A stretch of DNA of 64,000 nucleotides from NCBI RefSeq assembly GCF_020164485.1, contig NZ_JAIQZA010000009.1, forward strand, positions 62,001-126,000, read 5' to 3'. Below the pieces are notes generated by a model. It ran no database searches, was not told where the DNA came from, and saw nothing but the letters and a program-made list of their open reading frames with translations. Source of the stretch: Salegentibacter tibetensis. GTDB lineage: Bacteria; Bacteroidota; Bacteroidia; Flavobacteriales; Flavobacteriaceae. Of the stretch, positions 8,541 to 28,777 are shown in pieces; position 1 is the first letter of the stretch; every line of letters begins with the position of its first letter. Position numbers and translations under genes: made by a program.

Positions 8541-9524
8541 TTACTTCTTTTTTCGAAAATTTTTATCATCGAATTCCTTTTTGTTATAGAAGTCTTCTTC
8601 ATTATTATTTTCTCTGTCTCTTTTTGAGGTACCGCTTTTTTCTGATCCTGAATTCTTAGGATTGGAATCTCTATCGCTGTCGCTCGAGAAACTTGTTTTT
8701 TCAGTATTTTTAGGATTAAAATCATCTTTGATTTGACCTCTTTCACTATCTTTATTATGACTTGTAGCGCCGGTATGTGAAACATCTGAGTCTCCGATAT
8801 CTTTATCCCGTTGGTTACGTTTTTCAGGTGCGGTATCTTCAGCCAATTTTTTTTGCCTGTCTTCGCCTTTGTTGCGATCACCTGTAACAGCGTTTTTGTC
8901 TTTTGGAGTTTTGTTGTGTTCACCTGTATCTGCCTTCTTGTCTTTTGAGGCTTTATTGCGATCACCTGGATCTGCCTTTGTCTCTGTTGAGGTTTTGTAG
9001 CGTTCACTCGTAACTGCGTTCTTGTCTTTGGAGGTTTTGTTACGATCACTGGAGGAATTAGTATCCCGATTATAAGATTCCAAGACAACTTTTTCATATT
9101 CCCTGTTTACATTAGAGCCTTTCTTCATTCTTTTAGTCTGGGCAAAAGTTTTGTGGTTGACTTTGTCTGTATAAACAAACTTGTTGTCATCGTTTAATTT
9201 TACCAGACCAATAGGGATTATGATATGGTCTTCACCATCTTTATTCATAAATTCATGAACCCCTTCGCTTGAACCAGACCTGTAGGGATCGTGTTTTGCT
9301 TCAATTATACTTTTGTCAACTTCTACATCCAGGTAAACAACGCGTTCTGTATTTTTATTTACGAGAAGATTTTCTACTTTTCCTATCACACGGTCGTCAG
9401 CATCTTTTACTTCCCAGCCTCGAACATCTGGATCATCACTTGAAACTTTATAATCTGAAAGTTCATTTAAATAGAACAAATTTTTATCCGTATTCCTTTT
9501 ATTGTTATCATCATTATTTGCCAT
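8541..9524 (-). CDS. PRC-barrel domain protein with repetitive hydrophilic tail (module copy 2)
   Basis: 327 residues. The first 150 are a PRC-barrel-like domain matching the shorter paralogue at 7440-8093 (LFYLNELSDYKVSSD, DVRGWEVKDADDRVIGKVE, HIIIPIGLVKL). From residue 160 to 215 there are four 14-residue repeats of the type DRNKTSKDKNAVTG. The rest is Lys/Asp/Glu/Ser-rich low-complexity sequence ending in KNFRKKK, like the KDDxNFRKxK-type end of the paralogue. The tail is strongly hydrophilic and probably disordered, which recalls LEA-like desiccation proteins in composition only. It lies 18 bp after the 212-residue anchor gene in one transcription unit. Confidence 0.8.
   Translation of the reverse strand: MANNDDNNKRNTDKNLFYLNELSDYKVSSDDPDVRGWEVKDADDRVIGKVENLLVNKNTERVVYLDVEVDKSIIEAKHDPYRSGSSEGVHEFMNKDGEDHIIIPIGLVKLNDDNKFVYTDKVNHKTFAQTKRMKKGSNVNREYEKVVLESYNRDTNSSSDRNKTSKDKNAVTSERYKTSTETKADPGDRNKASKDKKADTGEHNKTPKDKNAVTGDRNKGEDRQKKLAEDTAPEKRNQRDKDIGDSDVSHTGATSHNKDSERGQIKDDFNPKNTEKTSFSSDSDRDSNPKNSGSEKSGTSKRDRENNNEEDFYNKKEFDDKNFRKKK
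8880..9047 (-). repeat. Four 42-bp in-frame repeats in the PRC-protein tail
   Basis: Encodes four successive 14-residue units: DRNKTSKDKNAVTS, ERYKTSTETKADPG, DRNKASKDKKADTG and EHNKTPKDKNAVTG, plus the beginning of a fifth. The repetition also creates a long spurious ORF in another frame (8474-9097). Copy number at such loci usually varies between strains. Confidence 0.8.
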
Positions 9525-22451: not shown

Positions 22452-24266
22452 TTAGAAACAATACTTATTTTCTGAAGTCAGTTTTTCAGCAATAGTGTTT
22501 CTTAATTCTACTACGTTTGGCATTCTATCATATTTAGTGAAACGCTTTAGACCCATTAGCATCATACGTTGTTCATCACCTTCGGCAAAAGAAGCAATTC
22601 CCTCTTTCGCTTTCTGGTTTACGGTATCTACAGCGTGATATAAATATAATTTTGCCATTGCGATTTGCTCTTTTTGAGCATCTTCACCAAAACGTTTTAC
22701 ATTTTTTTCGGCTCTTAGAATAGCAGATTCAGCCATATAAGCTTCTATAAGAATATCTGAAGCAGCCAAAAGCAATTGCTGGTGTTCTTCCAGATCCTGA
22801 CCAAATTTCTGAACTGCGCTTCCCGCTACCATCAAAAAAACTTTTTTCAGTTTCTTGATCATATCCTTTTCTTCAGCGAATAACTCATTAAAATCTGGTT
22901 TATCCATAGAAGGGATTCCGGTAAGTTCTTCTCCAACAGCCTGTGCCGGGCCCAAAAGATCTACGTGACCTTTCATCGCCTTTTTAATCAGCATTCCAAC
23001 GGCTAACATTCGGTTTATCTCGTTAGTACCTTCATAAATCCTGGCAATTCTTGCATCTCTCCAGGCAGATTCCATAGGGGTGTCTGCTGAAAAGCCCATT
23101 CCACCTAAAACTTGTATACCTTCATCACTACAGTTTTGAACATCTTCAGAGCAAGCCACTTTAAGAATTGAGCATTCTATTGCGTATTCCTCAAAAGTCT
23201 TTAACTCAGCATCAGCATGCGATTCTCCGGCTTCCATACGAAGATTGATTCGATCTTCAATATTCTTTGCTACACGGTAACTTGCTGCTTCACCAACCCA
23301 GGCTGAAGTAGCCATTTCAGCAAGTTTCAATTTTATGGCACCAAACTTTGCAATTGGTGTTTTAAACTGAACCCTGTCATTCGCATATTTTACAGCAACA
23401 TCGGTTACTCTTCGCTGAGCTTCAAGAGAAGCTGCGGCAAGTTTAATTCGTCCAACGTTTAGGGCATTCATGGCGATTTTAAATCCGTTTCCTCTTTCTG
23501 AAAGCATATTTTCAGCAGGTATCACGGTGTCGTTAAAAAATACCTGACGGGTAGAGGAAGCGTGGATTCCCAGTTTCTTCTCTTCTTCGCCAAAAGTAAT
23601 TCCGTTAGGATTTTCCTTATCGTATTCTACAATAAATCCGGTAATATTTTTATCGTCTTGAATTCGGGCAAAAACAATAAAAACAGTTGCAAACCCCGCA
23701 TTGGAGATCCACATTTTTTGTCCGTTTATCTTGTAATTTTTTCTGTCGTCGGTAAGCTCAGCTTTGGTTTTACCCGAATTGGCATCACTTCCGGCTCCCG
23801 GTTCGGTAAGACAGTAAGCGCCAAACCACTCTCCGGTAGCTAACTTCGGAATATACTTTTTGCGTTGTTCTTCATTTCCATAAAGCAGGATTGGCAAAGT
23901 CCCAATTCCAGTATGTGCTCCAAAAGCGGTAGCGATAGAACCGGTTGCTCCTGAAATATAATCGCAAACCAGCATTGTGGAAACGAAGCCCATTCCAAGG
24001 CCGTCGTATTCTTCCGGCACAGCTACCCCAAGAAATCCAAGTTCCCCGGCTTTGCCCATTACTTCTTCAGTAAGTGCGTAATTTTTCTTTTCGAATTCTT
24101 CCTTTTTCGGCCAGATCTCGCGATCAACAAATTCCTTAACCGAATCACGCATCATTTTTTGCTCCTCCGTAAAATCTTCCGGAGTAAATATATCTTCCGC
24201 CTTGGTTTCCTTTACCAGGAATTGCCCACCGCGGAGGAGTTTATCTTCTTTAATTGATTTTTCCAT
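22452..24266 (-). CDS. fadE: Acyl-CoA dehydrogenase
   Basis: 604 residues, longer than the 380-residue short/medium-chain enzymes and similar to B. subtilis FadE and very-long-chain types with an extra C-terminal helical domain. Motifs: FGAYCLTEPGAGSDANS (flavin-binding loop), MWISNAGFA, and ARIYEGTNEINRMLAVG with the FAD/substrate contacts. It catalyses the first step of beta-oxidation, forming trans-2-enoyl-CoA. It is the last gene of the fadN-fadA-fadE unit and is separated from fadA by a four-helix-bundle cassette whose left repeat array ends 32 bp before this start codon. The symbol is by order and similarity to Bacillus fadNAE. Confidence 0.9.
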   Translation of the reverse strand: MEKSIKEDKLLRGGQFLVKETKAEDIFTPEDFTEEQKMMRDSVKEFVDREIWPKKEEFEKKNYALTEEVMGKAGELGFLGVAVPEEYDGLGMGFVSTMLVCDYISGATGSIATAFGAHTGIGTLPILLYGNEEQRKKYIPKLATGEWFGAYCLTEPGAGSDANSGKTKAELTDDRKNYKINGQKMWISNAGFATVFIVFARIQDDKNITGFIVEYDKENPNGITFGEEEKKLGIHASSTRQVFFNDTVIPAENMLSERGNGFKIAMNALNVGRIKLAAASLEAQRRVTDVAVKYANDRVQFKTPIAKFGAIKLKLAEMATSAWVGEAASYRVAKNIEDRINLRMEAGESHADAELKTFEEYAIECSILKVACSEDVQNCSDEGIQVLGGMGFSADTPMESAWRDARIARIYEGTNEINRMLAVGMLIKKAMKGHVDLLGPAQAVGEELTGIPSMDKPDFNELFAEEKDMIKKLKKVFLMVAGSAVQKFGQDLEEHQQLLLAASDILIEAYMAESAILRAEKNVKRFGEDAQKEQIAMAKLYLYHAVDTVNQKAKEGIASFAEGDEQRMMLMGLKRFTKYDRMPNVVELRNTIAEKLTSENKYCF

Positions 24267-24298: not shown

Positions 24299-24333
24299 AA
24301 GAATCAGGAAACAAGATTCAAGATTCAAGACTT
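24299..24333. repeat. Left heptamer array of cassette 1
   Basis: Five consecutive 7-bp units on the plus strand: AAGAATC, AGGAAAC, AAGATTC, AAGATTC, AAGACTT. About 26 of 35 positions agree with the reverse complement of the right array, 18 of 19-21 in the inner three units. The stop codon of the cassette gene lies in this array. Confidence 0.8.
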
Positions 24334-24687
24334 TTCTAATCCGTCTATAAATCCTGATATCATTTTCTGTATTTCCTGAATTTTTAATTCAAATGCTTTA
24401 AATTTTTCTTCTGAAATATGTTCTTCTGAATAGGCAATTATTAATTGTGTTTCCCATTCAAAAGCCGAACCGAGACTATTTTCAAGATATTGGGTAAAAT
24501 GCTTATCGGTTCTTTTGCTCGTCCCCTCAGCAATATTTGAAGGAATAGAAACCGCACATCTTATTAATTGGGACACAAGATTAAATTTTTCAAAATCAGG
24601 AAAATTTCTAACCATTTTATAAGTTTCTCTAGTAAGAAACATTCCTTCTTTCCAAATTTTTAATTTTTTAAAATTGTGCCTTTGCAT
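24325..24687 (-). CDS. Four-helix-bundle protein (IVP/S23 family), cassette 1
   Basis: 120 residues, predicted all-helical. Starts with HNFKKLKIWKEGM and contains the family signature IRCAVSIPSNIAEGTSK, the hallmark of proteins encoded by 23S rRNA intervening sequences and related to the DGR accessory protein bAvd. The family forms barrel-like pentamers with a basic surface that can bind nucleic acid; the cellular role is not settled. It lies between fadA and fadE on the same strand with no own terminator, so it is co-transcribed. It shares only the family pattern with the cassette 2 protein, about one third identical by eye, so the two are not a recent duplication. Confidence 0.9.
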   Translation of the reverse strand: MQRHNFKKLKIWKEGMFLTRETYKMVRNFPDFEKFNLVSQLIRCAVSIPSNIAEGTSKRTDKHFTQYLENSLGSAFEWETQLIIAYSEEHISEEKFKAFELKIQEIQKMISGFIDGLEKS

Positions 24688-24706
24688 CTCTGGAGTTCTC
24701 GTTATA

Positions 24707-24741
24707 GTCTTGTATCTTGACTCTTAATTCTTGGATCTAAC
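24707..24741. repeat. Right heptamer array of cassette 1
   Basis: On the plus strand GTCTTGT, ATCTTGA, CTCTTAA, TTCTTGG and ATCTAAC, i.e. on the coding strand GTTAGAT, CCAAGAA, TTAAGAG, TCAAGAT, ACAAGAC. The first coding-strand unit contains the TAG stop codon of fadA (24737-24739). Confidence 0.75.
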
Positions 24742-25930
24742 TAAGAAACTCGTAAACCCCAGCAGCTCCCTGTCCGGTTCCTACGCACATGGTTACCATT
24801 GCGTATTTGTCTTTAAGGTTGCGTTTGCGCATTTCATCAAAGATCTGCACCGAAAGTTTTGCTCCTGTACAGCCCAGCGGATGGCCCATAGAAATAGCGC
24901 CTCCATTAGGATTCAAGGTCTCCGGATTTAAACCGAGTTCTCTTATTACTGCCAGTGATTGTGAAGCAAAAGCTTCATTCAATTCAATAAGTTGCATATC
25001 GTCCTGTTTCAATCCGGCTTGTTTTAAAGCCTTTGGAATAGCGTGAACCGGACCAATCCCCATAATTCTTGGATCTACACCAACCGGTGCATAACTCACC
25101 ATTCTCGCGATAGGTTCCAGGTTTAATTCTTTGACCATTTCTTCGCTCATTACCATTACAAAGGCAGCACCATCACTCATTTGTGAGGAATTACCAGCTG
25201 TCACACTTCCACCTTCAGCAAAAACCGGTCTTAGTTTGCCTAAAGCTTCTTTAGAAGTATCGGCACGCGGACCTTCATCTTTGTTTACCGTATATGTTTT
25301 GGTTTGTTTTTTTCCGTCTTTTCCCACAAAAGTTTCTTCCACATCTATCGGTACAATCTGACCCTGAAAACGATCTTCTTCTTGTGCTTTCAATGCTTTT
25401 TGATGGGAATTAAAAGCAAATTCATCCTGGTCTTCCCTTGAAACTTTGTATTTCTCGGCTACGGCTTCCGCGGTAAGTCCCATGCCCCAGTAATAATCTT
25501 CGTTGCCTTCTTTGGCAGTTTTATAATTGGGAACCGGTTTATAACCGCCCATCGGGATGTAACTCATACTTTCGGCCCCACCGGCGATAATACAATCGGC
25601 CATTCCGCTTTGGATCTTAGCCGAAGCAATCGCAATGGTTTCCAATCCTGAGGCACAATAACGGTTAACCGTCATCCCCGGAACCTTATCGGTATCCAAA
25701 CTCATTAATGAGATCAAACGCCCAACGTTTAAACCTTGTTCGGCTTCGGGCATTGCGTTTCCTACAATTACATCATCGATCCTTGTTTTATCAAAATCGG
25801 GTAATTGCTTCATCATATATTCTATGGTTTCTGCCGCCAGATCATCGGGCCGCTTAAACCTGAACACACCCCGGGGAGCTTTCCCCACGGCTGTTCTGTA
25901 TGCTTTTACTATGTATGCTGTTTTGTTCAT
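24737..25930 (-). CDS. fadA: Acetyl-CoA C-acyltransferase (3-ketoacyl-CoA thiolase)
   Basis: 397 residues, a standard thiolase. Active-site Cys92 in NRYCASGLE, the His in SMGHPLGCTGA (about 350), and the second Cys in MCVGTGQGAAG near 384. It cleaves 3-ketoacyl-CoA with CoA to give acetyl-CoA in the last step of beta-oxidation. It lies second in the fadN-fadA-fadE order. The ATG is only 4 nt from the left heptamer array of cassette 2, so the array is its mRNA leader and no Shine-Dalgarno sequence is present. The stop codon is the first TAG of the cassette 1 array. Confidence 0.95.
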   Translation of the reverse strand: MNKTAYIVKAYRTAVGKAPRGVFRFKRPDDLAAETIEYMMKQLPDFDKTRIDDVIVGNAMPEAEQGLNVGRLISLMSLDTDKVPGMTVNRYCASGLETIAIASAKIQSGMADCIIAGGAESMSYIPMGGYKPVPNYKTAKEGNEDYYWGMGLTAEAVAEKYKVSREDQDEFAFNSHQKALKAQEEDRFQGQIVPIDVEETFVGKDGKKQTKTYTVNKDEGPRADTSKEALGKLRPVFAEGGSVTAGNSSQMSDGAAFVMVMSEEMVKELNLEPIARMVSYAPVGVDPRIMGIGPVHAIPKALKQAGLKQDDMQLIELNEAFASQSLAVIRELGLNPETLNPNGGAISMGHPLGCTGAKLSVQIFDEMRKRNLKDKYAMVTMCVGTGQGAAGVYEFLS

Positions 25931-25934
25931 TTTT

Positions 25935-25969
25935 TAGTATTTAGATGTTAGTATTGAGTATTGAGAAAA
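25935..25969. repeat. Left heptamer array of cassette 2
   Basis: Five units on the plus strand: TAGTATT, TAGATGT, TAGTATT, GAGTATT, GAGAAAA. By eye 26 of 35 positions match the reverse complement of the right array. The cassette stop codon follows 1 nt inward and the fadA start codon lies 4 nt outward. Confidence 0.8.
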
Positions 25970-25970
25970 C

Positions 25971-26324
25971 TCAAACAGCTAACGATTTCATTAATGCATA
26001 ATTCATTTTTTGAACCTCAATCACTTCAGATAAAATTGGTGCAACTTTTTCTTGATCCACCAAATTCAATCTATGAGAAAGTAATAATTGAGTATAAAGT
26101 TCATAAGAAGATCCGCTTGCTATGCCTAAGAAATTTTTAAATTCTCCTTTGGTATTTCTACCGGCTCTTTCGGCAATATTAGAAGGAACTGAAACAGCAC
26201 TTCTTCTTATTTGACTCGTTAAACCAAACTTTTCTTCAGCTGGAAAATTAGCAGAGAGTAGGTAAGTTTTTTCAGCAATATCCATTGCTTTATTCCAAAT
26301 TTTTAAATCATTTAATTTGTGCAT
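25971..26324 (-). CDS. Four-helix-bundle protein (IVP/S23 family), cassette 2
   Basis: 117 residues from the ATG at 26324 (MHKLNDLKIWNKAMD), chosen because it matches the beginning of the cassette 1 protein (FKKLKIWKEGM). An in-frame GTG at 26348 would add 8 residues encoded inside the repeat array and is unlikely. Family signature: IRRSAVSVPSNIAERAGR; all-helical. It is the second IVP-like gene in the same operon. Sequence differs widely from cassette 1, apart from the family positions. Probably co-transcribed with fadN and fadA; the biological role of this family outside rRNA insertions is unknown. Confidence 0.9.
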   Translation of the reverse strand: MHKLNDLKIWNKAMDIAEKTYLLSANFPAEEKFGLTSQIRRSAVSVPSNIAERAGRNTKGEFKNFLGIASGSSYELYTQLLLSHRLNLVDQEKVAPILSEVIEVQKMNYALMKSLAV

Positions 26325-26339
26325 ATTTCTGATTTTTAG

Positions 26340-26374
26340 ATTACTCACTACTCTATACTAAATACTCACTACTA
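26340..26374. repeat. Right heptamer array of cassette 2
   Basis: On the plus strand ATTACTC, ACTACTC, TATACTA, AATACTC, ACTACTA; on the coding strand TAGTAGT, GAGTATT, TAGTATA, GAGTAGT, GAGTAAT. The first coding-strand unit supplies the TAG stop of fadN, with two further in-frame stops directly after it. Confidence 0.8.
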
Positions 26375-28777
26375 ATTTCTTAGCGGTTTCCCTTTCTTCA
26401 ACATATGCTGAAGGCGTTCTAAGGTTTTGCGTTCTCCGGTTAGGGAAAGAAATGCTTCTCTTTCCAGATCTAAAAGGTATTGTTCGCTTACCATTTGTGG
26501 TTCTGAAAGATCACCACCGGCCATTACATAAGCCAGTTTGTTGGCAATTTTCTTATCGTGGTCGCTAATGTATTTTCCGGCATTCATCTGGTCGGTTCCT
26601 ACTAAGAATGCGCCTAAGGCCTGTTTTCCGAGGACTTTGATATCGGTACGGTGAATTGGCTTTGTATAACCATTTTCGGCCATTAACAACGCGTGTTTCT
26701 TAGCGATGGTGAGTTGCCGTTCCTGATTTATCACTACGATATCTTTTCCTTTCTGAAGAATATTCAAATCGAAAGCTTCGTGGGCCGAGGTAGAAACTTT
26801 TGCCATCCCAATGGTTAGGAAATGTTCCCTTAAACGGTTCAGTTCTACATCATCTTTTTCAAAAGTGTCAGCTGCGCGAACGGTCATTTCTTTAGAACCC
26901 CCACCGCCGGGAATTACCCCAACACCAAATTCAACTAAACCAATATAAGTTTCGGCTGCTGCCACAACTTTATCGGCGTGAAGTGAAAGTTCACACCCGC
27001 CACCAAGCGTCATAGAGTGTGGTGCGGCTACGGTTGGAATGGAGGAGTAACGCATACGCATCATCGTATCCTGGAAATATTTAATCGCCATATTCAACTC
27101 TTCGTATTCCTGCTCTACGGCCATCATAAAGATCATCCCGATATTGGCGCCCACAGAGAAATTTTTCCCATTGTTGGCAACAACTAATCCCTGGTAATCT
27201 TTTTCGGCCATATCTATGGCTTTGTTAATTCCATCCAGTACATCGCCGCCGATCGCGTTCATTTTACTTCGGAATTCAACATTAAGGATTCCATCACCAA
27301 GATCTTCAACCACAACTCCGCTGTTACTGAAAACCTCTTTTGACTCACGAATATTATCTAAAATGATAAACGCATCCTGACCTGGAATTTTTGTGTAATC
27401 TTTTTTCTGAATATCGTAAAAATAGGTATTGCCTTCTTTTACTGTATAGAAAGATTCTTTTCCGTTTTCCAGCATTTCATTTACCCAGGCCGCAGGTTCT
27501 GTACCTTCGGCTTTCATCATTTCAATACCTTTCTTCACGCCAATGGCATCCCAAATTTGAAACGGACCGTGCTCCCAACCAAATCCGGCTTTTACTCCGT
27601 CATCAATTTTGTAAAGTTCATCGGAGATTTCAGGGATCCTATTAGAAACATAAGCGAAAAGTGCAGAAAAATTCTTGCGGTAAAATTCACCCGCTTTGTC
27701 TTTTCCGTTTATTAAAACTTCAAAACGATCGGCTACATTATCTATACTTTTAGTTTCCTCTAAAGTCGCGAAAGAAGCTTTTTTCTGGTCACGATATTCC
27801 ATCGTTTCCAGATCCAGTGATTTAATCGTGCTGGAACCATCTTCATTCTTAATTTTCTTGTAAAAACCTTGTCCGCTTTTGCTCCCGTACCATTCGTTAT
27901 CCATCATTGTTTGGATAAAATCGGGCAGGGCAAAAAGGTCGTGGGCTTCATCGTTTGGTACGCCTTTGTGAAGGCCGTTGGCCACGTGTACCAAAGTATC
28001 TAAACCAACAACATCTACCGTACGGAAAGTCGCCGATTTTTGTCGGCCAATTACGGGACCGGTAAGTTTATCGACTTCCTCAATGGTCATATCCATATCT
28101 TTTATCATATGGAAAAGGCTCATAATGCTGAAAATACCAATTCGGTTTCCGATAAATGCGGGAGTATCTTTTGCTACTACCGATTTCTTTCCGAGGAATT
28201 TTTCGCCATATTCATTCAGGAACTCCAACACTTCCGGTTTGGTATCGGGTCCTGGGATAATTTCGAATAATTTCAGGTAGCGCGGTGGGTTAAAAAAGTG
28301 GGTTCCACAGAAATGCTGCTGAAAATCCTCGCTTCTTCCTTCGTTCATTTGCTGAATAGGAATTCCCGATGTGTTGGAAGAAATAAGCGTTCCTTTTTTA
28401 CGGTGTTTTTCTAAATTATCAAACACCTGTTTTTTAATATCCAGGCGTTCTACCACTACCTCGATAATCCAATCGGCTTCAGAAACTTTAGAAATATCGT
28501 CTTCCATATTTCCGGTTTCTATGCGATTGGCAAAATCTTTATGATAAATAGGAGAGGGCTTAGACTTTAAAGCCGACTGTAAAGATTCGTTTACCAGGCG
28601 GTCTCTTACCTCTTTATCTTCTAAAGTAAGACCTTTTTTCTTTTCTTTCTCGTTGAGTTCCCGCGGGACAATATCCAGCAAAAGAACTTCTACGCCAATG
28701 TTGGCGAAGTGGCAGGCAATACCGCTTCCCATAATTCCGGAGCCGATTACCGCTACTTTATTAATTCTTCTCTTCAT
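26372..28777 (-). CDS. fadN: 3-hydroxyacyl-CoA dehydrogenase / enoyl-CoA hydratase (FadN type)
   Basis: 801 residues with the dehydrogenase first: VAVIGSGIMGSGIACHFA (NAD-binding, 8-25), then IEVVVERLDIKKQVF, SSNTSGIPI, HFFNPPRYLKLFEI and PAFIGNRIG. The enoyl-CoA hydratase/isomerase domain follows from about 490 (NGKNFSVGAN, GGGCELSLHAD, GVGVIPGGGGSKEM). This domain order is that of B. subtilis FadN and the reverse of E. coli FadB. The enzyme hydrates enoyl-CoA and oxidises 3-hydroxyacyl-CoA. First gene of the fadN-fadA-fadE unit; the next gene upstream is a MarR regulator 175 bp away, in the same direction. Confidence 0.92.
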   Translation of the reverse strand: MKRRINKVAVIGSGIMGSGIACHFANIGVEVLLLDIVPRELNEKEKKKGLTLEDKEVRDRLVNESLQSALKSKPSPIYHKDFANRIETGNMEDDISKVSEADWIIEVVVERLDIKKQVFDNLEKHRKKGTLISSNTSGIPIQQMNEGRSEDFQQHFCGTHFFNPPRYLKLFEIIPGPDTKPEVLEFLNEYGEKFLGKKSVVAKDTPAFIGNRIGIFSIMSLFHMIKDMDMTIEEVDKLTGPVIGRQKSATFRTVDVVGLDTLVHVANGLHKGVPNDEAHDLFALPDFIQTMMDNEWYGSKSGQGFYKKIKNEDGSSTIKSLDLETMEYRDQKKASFATLEETKSIDNVADRFEVLINGKDKAGEFYRKNFSALFAYVSNRIPEISDELYKIDDGVKAGFGWEHGPFQIWDAIGVKKGIEMMKAEGTEPAAWVNEMLENGKESFYTVKEGNTYFYDIQKKDYTKIPGQDAFIILDNIRESKEVFSNSGVVVEDLGDGILNVEFRSKMNAIGGDVLDGINKAIDMAEKDYQGLVVANNGKNFSVGANIGMIFMMAVEQEYEELNMAIKYFQDTMMRMRYSSIPTVAAPHSMTLGGGCELSLHADKVVAAAETYIGLVEFGVGVIPGGGGSKEMTVRAADTFEKDDVELNRLREHFLTIGMAKVSTSAHEAFDLNILQKGKDIVVINQERQLTIAKKHALLMAENGYTKPIHRTDIKVLGKQALGAFLVGTDQMNAGKYISDHDKKIANKLAYVMAGGDLSEPQMVSEQYLLDLEREAFLSLTGERKTLERLQHMLKKGKPLRN

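Follow-up and report, generated by a model that had tools for sequence, protein, structure and literature searches.

Each of two adjacent gaps of a fad operon in the 64 kb window (the whole stretch of DNA that was analysed) holds a gene of the 23S rRNA IVP family enclosed by inverted arrays of short repeats, and this repeat-flanked cassette is a real and general design that turns over in operon gaps. In the reading that we consider probable, the cassette is a small selfish mobile element, consisting of an IVP gene and inverted arrays with an AG core, that resides in the gaps of operons and is a counterpart of the IVP-coding intervening sequences (IVSs) of 23S rRNA. A search of open-licence PMC papers turned up no account of protein operons in which IVP genes are enclosed by inverted 7-mer arrays.

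The fad genes and the two cassettes of the window are listed in Table 1. The original prediction placed one IVP gene in each of the fadN–fadA and fadA–fadE gaps, between inverted 7 bp arrays, and described the two cassettes as nearly equal in length; the profile matches and the alignment of the arms bear this out, with lengths of ∼439 nt for cassette 1 and ∼442 nt for cassette 2. The arms of cassette 1 are inverted over 33 nt with 79% complementarity and those of cassette 2 over 42 nt with 76% complementarity. The IVP frame of cassette 2 is open from a GTG at 26348 [25971–26348(−)], and the internal ATG at 26324 is the more likely start as judged from the sequence. The arrays stand out from their surroundings: the 35 nt stretches of the window with a lag-7 self-identity of at least 0.68 are solely three of the four cassette arms, and the arm-to-arm score is 19 and 22 for the two IVP genes, while a score of at least 16 is reached by one of the 43 other genes in the window. 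A 42/84 bp tandem repeat is located elsewhere in the window (8867–9053).

Table 1. Host genes, IVP genes and array arms of the fad operon in the window
Feature	Coordinates	Strand	Basis or remark
fadN (3-hydroxyacyl-CoA dehydrogenase type), upstream host gene	26372..28777	-	open reading frames
fadA (thiolase), host gene separating both cassettes	24737..25930	-	orthologues in relatives; name from the original prediction and inference
fadE (acyl-CoA dehydrogenase), downstream host gene	22452..24266	-	open reading frames
Cassette 1 (fadA–fadE gap), arm 3' of IVP gene	24300..24332	.	AAGATTC-like unit; covers last codons and stop of the gene
Cassette 1 IVP gene (PF05635/TIGR02436), 120 aa	24325..24687	-	profile matches
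Cassette 1, arm 5' of IVP gene	24706..24738	.	enters fadA stop codon; TAG in 7 nt phase with array
Cassette 2 (fadN–fadA gap), arm 3' of IVP gene	25934..25975	.	AGTATTG-like unit
Cassette 2 IVP gene from likely ATG	25971..26324	-	profile matches, sequence, model
Cassette 2, arm 5' of IVP gene	26334..26375	.	enters fadN stop codon; TAG in 7 nt phase

Both window proteins match Pfam family PF05635 (E = 3.6e-35 for 24325–24687 and 3.9e-36 for 25971–26348; 120.8 and 123.9 bits against a cutoff of 33.8) and TIGR02436 (23S_rRNA_IVP, four helix bundle protein; 110.1 and 118.1 bits against a cutoff of 24). The AlphaFold2 model of the second protein (IVP2) displays four helices, with a pLDDT of 90.6. 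The solved homologues detected by sequence, 2gsc (E = 4.8e-19) and 2rld (E = 2.1e-4), contain five chains each, and the Xanthomonas homologue is described as a toroidal homopentamer (PMC4990558); by analogy with these homologues, IVPs of the window type are probably pentameric. No nuclease, recombinase or transposase domain was recognized in the window IVPs by a search with Pfam and TIGRFAM-type profiles. The related four-helix-bundle fold of the Avd/bAvd proteins of diversity-generating retroelements gives weak profile matches (21–22 bits), and identity with Avd was rejected, the window proteins scoring well below the Avd cutoffs (21.6–21.8 bits against 40 for PF22296 and 21.1–21.2 bits against 80 for NF033474). 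The dN/dS ratio is below 0.5 in all 53 of 53 close pairs (median 0.09), and this purifying selection indicates that the protein does something that is visible to selection. Broken copies of IVP genes also occur.

The family is abundant in the genome to which the window belongs (11 matches to PF05635) and is present in 14 of 15 genomes of the genus and in 90 of 118 genomes sampled from the phylum. The 157 distinct IVP genes from the fetched loci were reduced to 113 by removal of close relatives at 75% identity, and the arms were oriented by the strand of the IVP gene. The mean arm-versus-arm score of these 113 cassettes is 17.7; the controls average 9.9 (arms of different cassettes), 9.5 (shuffles) and 9.1 (outer flanks). 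A score of at least 16 is found in 69 of the 113 nonredundant cassettes (∼61%, leaving roughly four in ten below this threshold) and in 0 of 111 outer flanks. In a contig scan that excludes the window's own genome, the same score is reached by 59 of 80 named loci (∼74%) and by 5 of 71 neighbouring genes; these loci are the best matches to one alignment, and their labels and frequencies have to be read with care. They include contigs labelled Anaerolineaceae, Acidobacteria, Patescibacteria-type and Deltaproteobacteria, the contigs from other phyla being mostly metagenome bins. Periodicity gives the same picture, with a lag-7 identity of at least 0.6 over 35 nt in 60% of the upstream and 73% of the downstream flanks of IVP genes versus less than 1% of the outer flanks. 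Flanking inverted heptamers with a cassette-specific unit, whose recurrence in other genomes had been proposed as a check, are present in both the nonredundant cassettes and the named loci. One 12.5 kb contig (L189; G006 contig C32) carries several IVP genes, one of which scores identically to copies on two other contigs; these copies perhaps represent a repeated assembly region.

Among the 81 cassettes with an arm score of at least 15, the lag-7 identity is 0.575, compared with 0.263 in the outer flanks; 63 of them score best at lag 7, 12 at lag 8 and six at some other lag. The upstream and downstream arms agree in period in most cases (7/7 in 104 and 8/8 in 27); four cases mix 7 and 8, and other lags are involved in 22. 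In the inward direction from each end, the units show an AG core and are poor in C, and G exceeds C in both arms of 116 of the 128 cassettes with an arm score of at least 16. Cassettes differ widely in how many units an arm contains, and five units per arm as a rule can be rejected. The TAG stop upstream of a cassette frequently forms the first repeat. By our own count, the host stop codon 5' of the cassette is TAG in 24 of 42 IVP-bearing fad gaps. Across 193 cassettes, in a count uncorrected for relatedness, TAG terminates 79 of 203 long frames ending near an arm versus 21 of 111 elsewhere, part of this excess being expected since arrays may themselves supply the stop codon. The next AG follows exactly seven bases on in 37 of these 79 TAG frames, the runner-up offset accounting for 10 frames. 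At five loci (L193, L200, L244, L262 and L271) the arm itself is a hairpin of inverted arrays adjoining the IVP gene, on both sides in L193, L244 and L271.

It is distinctly improbable, in our judgment, that the arrays are ordinary slippage-prone intergenic repeats which simply receive IVP genes within or next to them. The window contains no other 7 nt array at threshold level, the lag-7 signal separates the flanks of IVP genes from the outer flanks, the unit and period are common to both arms and the period follows the protein (see below). This explanation would be consistent with the 7-mer direct repeats known from some Bacteroidetes and Cyanobacteria (PMC4679880), and also with arrays and hairpins that exist without an IVP gene. 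Heptamers of the latter kind, which the original prediction had named beforehand as counting against it, do occur in fad gaps, in the fetched loci and in the window's own genome.

By our criterion, an inverted heptamer hairpin is present in 11 of 47 gene-less fad gaps of 35–260 nt, and six of these 11 gaps face an IVP cassette in the other gap of the operon. Five of the six hairpins resemble the unit of that cassette more closely than the average cassette of that gap elsewhere (17 versus 9.7, 15 versus 11.3, 15 versus 10.1, 14 versus 8.6 and 20 versus 10.9); equally scoring rivals number none in two of the five, one cassette in one and five in two. The sixth case, L072, is contrary (6 versus 7.5); its gap, which holds the remnant of an IVP gene, is more like the cassettes of that same gap. 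In the window's own genome the two unit patterns of the window give 17 and 14 matches, compared with 5 and 3 for the backward patterns, several of the matches being the window arms or overlapping. Of 15 other places inspected in this genome, two hold a gene-less hairpin, a clear one at L272 and a weaker one at L292; the remainder have no good inverted partner. The units are not unique to one cassette: the genome has further copies of them, for the most part in solitary arrays. In the fetched loci, gene-less 7-periodic hairpins have a density of 0.36–0.91 per 10 kb, and many are next to cassettes; short hairpins of this kind were rejected as a general background, the window having no more than a single weak, AT-rich example. 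We read the gene-less arrays as non-autonomous copies and remnants, which would leave the solitary arrays without an inverted partner unexplained.

The period of the array is associated with the protein. On a protein tree of 136 rows, a quick tree built from few columns, the period changes 11 times compared with 32.5 times after shuffling; with one cassette per upstream-gene cluster (72 cassettes) there are six changes versus 15.4, a value as low being reached in 0 of 300 shuffles. Period 8 is confined to certain protein lineages, and even at unrelated loci the period tracks the position of the protein in the tree. The columns of the alignment in which period-7 and period-8 proteins differ are mostly in the last helix, a pattern that is confounded with clade. 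For the unit itself, similarity is only weakly correlated with protein identity overall (Spearman coefficient of 0.16, Mantel 1 of 500; 70 cassettes). The 787 pairs with a protein identity of at least 0.58 and no similarity of flanks have a mean unit similarity of 11.7 versus 10.4 for random pairs, and 30 of the 45 listed most similar protein pairs from different loci, which are non-independent, exceed the 95th percentile of random pairs (15.5). Common descent of a moving cassette would account for the link between protein and array and direct binding would do so too; recognition of the array by the IVP appears likely.

Turnover was followed at the fad gaps, with fadA as an anchor (149 genomes from the family, 15 from the genus); the 62 loci examined are a non-random draw, mostly those with the most similar fadA. 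IVP genes are located in 22 fadN–fadA gaps and 20 fadA–fadE gaps, with both occupied in 11, giving 31 of the 62 loci; the IVP cassette is absent from the other 31, and the gaps without an IVP gene are mostly shorter than 135 nt. Empty sites, which the original prediction had called for in relatives, exist at the fad gaps. On the fadA tree of the genus, several inner forks of which are weak, the cassette types at both gaps change independently inside supported clades, and cassette types replace one another at the fad gaps within this one genus. The protein clade typical of the fadA–fadE gap includes the fadN–fadA genes of L060 and L088. The same unit is found at unrelated sites and empty sites exist, as expected of a mobile element. 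The proposed movement of a cassette type between gaps is well supported by the empty sites, the replacement within a genus, the L060/L088 clade and the occurrence of a similar protein and unit at unrelated loci; on these comparisons, mobility of the cassette can be regarded as well supported. Inspection of the fad-gap junctions by eye revealed no clear target duplication, and no insertion event was observed directly. The fadA–fadE gaps of L070, L074, L076, L077 and L079 hold a distant IVP subfamily (∼43–46 bits against our profile), the profile match of L079 being incomplete.

Beyond the fad operon, cassettes favour gaps between co-directional genes. Among the 186 cassettes with sufficient flank, 153 lie between two genes that are co-directional with the IVP gene, eight are antisense between tandem genes and 25 are arranged otherwise; without the fad loci, 106 are sense and eight antisense of 139. 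The 177 upstream genes fall into 86 clusters. For loci not chosen via fadA, the upstream gene is fadN or fadA in 28 of the 142 cassettes with a detected upstream gene, 75 of these 142 having come from a search with fad-gap proteins among the queries. A second hot spot (L206, L210, L223, L229 and others) comprises 17 cassettes after one upstream gene family, in Flavobacterium, Aquimarina and others; octamer arrays flank 14 of the 17. Genes of the IVP family are reported in other flavobacteria too: in F. columnare between the genes for guanylate kinase and nicotinate-nucleotide adenylyltransferase (PMC5524665), and in F. psychrophilum as differentially expressed in the biofilm (PMC5787105).

The occurrence of cassettes after many unrelated genes, their absence from half of the examined fad loci, their replacement by other types within a genus and the widely varying number of units per arm all argue against a domesticated regulator, in which the IVP would bind its own array in the transcript and tune the host operon. 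TRAP is a ring protein that reads spaced triplets, and an IVP acting in this way would fit AG units at a fixed spacing, the purifying selection on the IVP and the presence of cassettes at the fad gaps of many genera. The ring-shaped pentamer described for the Xanthomonas homologue (PMC4990558) would also be compatible. On balance, we give this explanation little probability and retain the selfish mobile element as the preferred one.

The nearest known element is the 23S rRNA IVS, as in Coxiella burnetii. The published Coxiella IVS measures 428–444 nt, has a 28 bp terminal stem that is cut by RNase III and codes for S23p, with two or three tandem heptamers (GACAGAT) before the S23p gene; the same source describes S23p as a protein without known function and the function and origin of the IVS as unclear (PMC4990558). 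The window cassettes resemble this IVS in protein family, size (∼440 nt), terminal inverted repeats and heptamers by the gene with AG every 7 nt. They differ in lying between protein genes and not in rRNA, and in having heptamer arrays at both ends. The published stem is nearly perfect, whereas the window arms, which share only a unit, are imperfect (76–79% complementary) and could form a stem to that extent. AG is expected in a random heptamer about one time in three, so that the AG core alone is weak evidence for a link with the IVS. No Rfam rRNA match was obtained in 30 loci, and insertion inside an rRNA gene does not apply to the window cassettes, located as they are between fad genes. By location they are not rRNA IVSs; judged on the protein, the size and the arrangement, they appear to be elements of one kind with them, and the likeness suggests that the cassettes and the Coxiella IVS form one element family. 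The link to the 23S rRNA IVS, which was part of the original prediction, is strengthened by the tandem heptamers described before the S23p gene (PMC4990558).

Predicted RNA folds pair the arms of both window cassettes (z = −4.3 and −3.1), and the arms of one cassette pair better with each other than with crossed arms in 87% of 191 cassettes. Taken with the strong sense preference (153 versus eight of 186) and the RNase III cleavage of the Coxiella IVS (PMC4990558), this pairing would fit an mRNA intervening sequence, whose arms pair in the polycistronic transcript, where a cut by RNase III separates the cistrons and the processing is maintained by selection. We regard this as unlikely: G.U mismatches are not in excess of A.C mismatches (91 versus 98 and 161 versus 196 in two cassette sets), the energy of the sense duplex is no better than that of the antisense duplex (p = 0.37; 191 cassettes), permutation of the unit order detects a weak register effect (z = 0.27 ± 0.11; 97 cassettes) and half of the 62 fad loci are without any IVP cassette. 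An earlier register test (mean z = 0.83, n = 42) used alignment-cut arms and is superseded by the permutation of the 97 cassettes; in that earlier test, the fad examples L002, L012 and L044 were no better than permuted. RNA-level selection on the stem is thus unsupported by the G.U versus A.C, sense versus antisense and register tests, and we conclude that the match between the arms is due mainly to the common unit. The original description of the heptamers as covarying therefore stands for a unit that is common to both arms and differs between cassettes, and largely falls for base-by-base pairing. The stems that it envisaged in the fad mRNA are likewise retained as predicted pairing of the arms, and the mismatch and duplex-energy tests lend them no support; RNA processing of the cassettes is possible, although the tests made on the sequences do not support it. 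The sense preference is the best remaining hint of a role at the RNA level and is equally explained by the need for a host promoter.

As a selfish mobile element, the cassette would carry a single gene, coding for a four-helix-bundle protein that is probably pentameric, with an inverted array of 7 or 8 nt units on either side. A site between the stop and the start of co-transcribed genes, mostly in the sense orientation, would allow expression from the host transcript with little harm, and the gene and its arms would travel and evolve together. The IVP most likely recognizes its own array, perhaps with one unit per subunit, which would keep both arms on one unit and let gene-less arrays persist or move in trans; we infer the transposition step and any cleavage of RNA. 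A broader proposal, to which we attach rather less than even confidence and which is best regarded as tentative, is that IVPs are the array readers of widespread mRNA-borne selfish elements, with a lineage-specific unit of 7 or 8 nt, gene-less arrays served in trans and insertion or regrowth at stop codons (TAG being the first repeat), and with the rRNA IVS as a special case. The recurrence in many cassettes of a design in which the period follows the protein makes the array a concrete substrate with which to test the function of S23p/IVP. The common annotation 'four helix bundle protein' would then become part of a mobile element, and the cassettes would help to explain the variation in length of operon gaps in Bacteroidota.

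Two other repeat systems are comparable in part. Arrays of the heptanucleotide TAACTGA, described in Beggiatoaceae, Cyanobacteria and some Bacteroidetes including Gramella and Aequorivita, are likewise intergenic 7-mers that are missing from the matching gaps of close relatives; they differ in being described as direct repeats of a single unit that mostly precede start codons, and the text of that report contains no mention of S23, four helix or intervening (PMC4679880). REP/RAYT elements likewise pair a small gene, bordered by palindromic repeats and located in an intergenic gap, with copies that lack the gene, but the IVP has no recognized transposase domain and its units are tandem 7/8-mers that differ from cassette to cassette. 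The fadN–fadA gap of L045 (713 nt) has no IVP gene and holds a gene between GGCGCAAGATTTTGCGCC-type palindromes that we take, by eye, to be RAYT (REP-associated) transposase-like, which implies that this gap also accepts another repeat-flanked element. The IVP-less fad gaps of L046, L058, L081, L097 and L101 and of L048 and L085 contain other hairpins, CCCCCTATCCCCC/CTCCTTTGGAGAGGG repeats and CTGGTCGAGCGCAGTCGAGACC palindromes.
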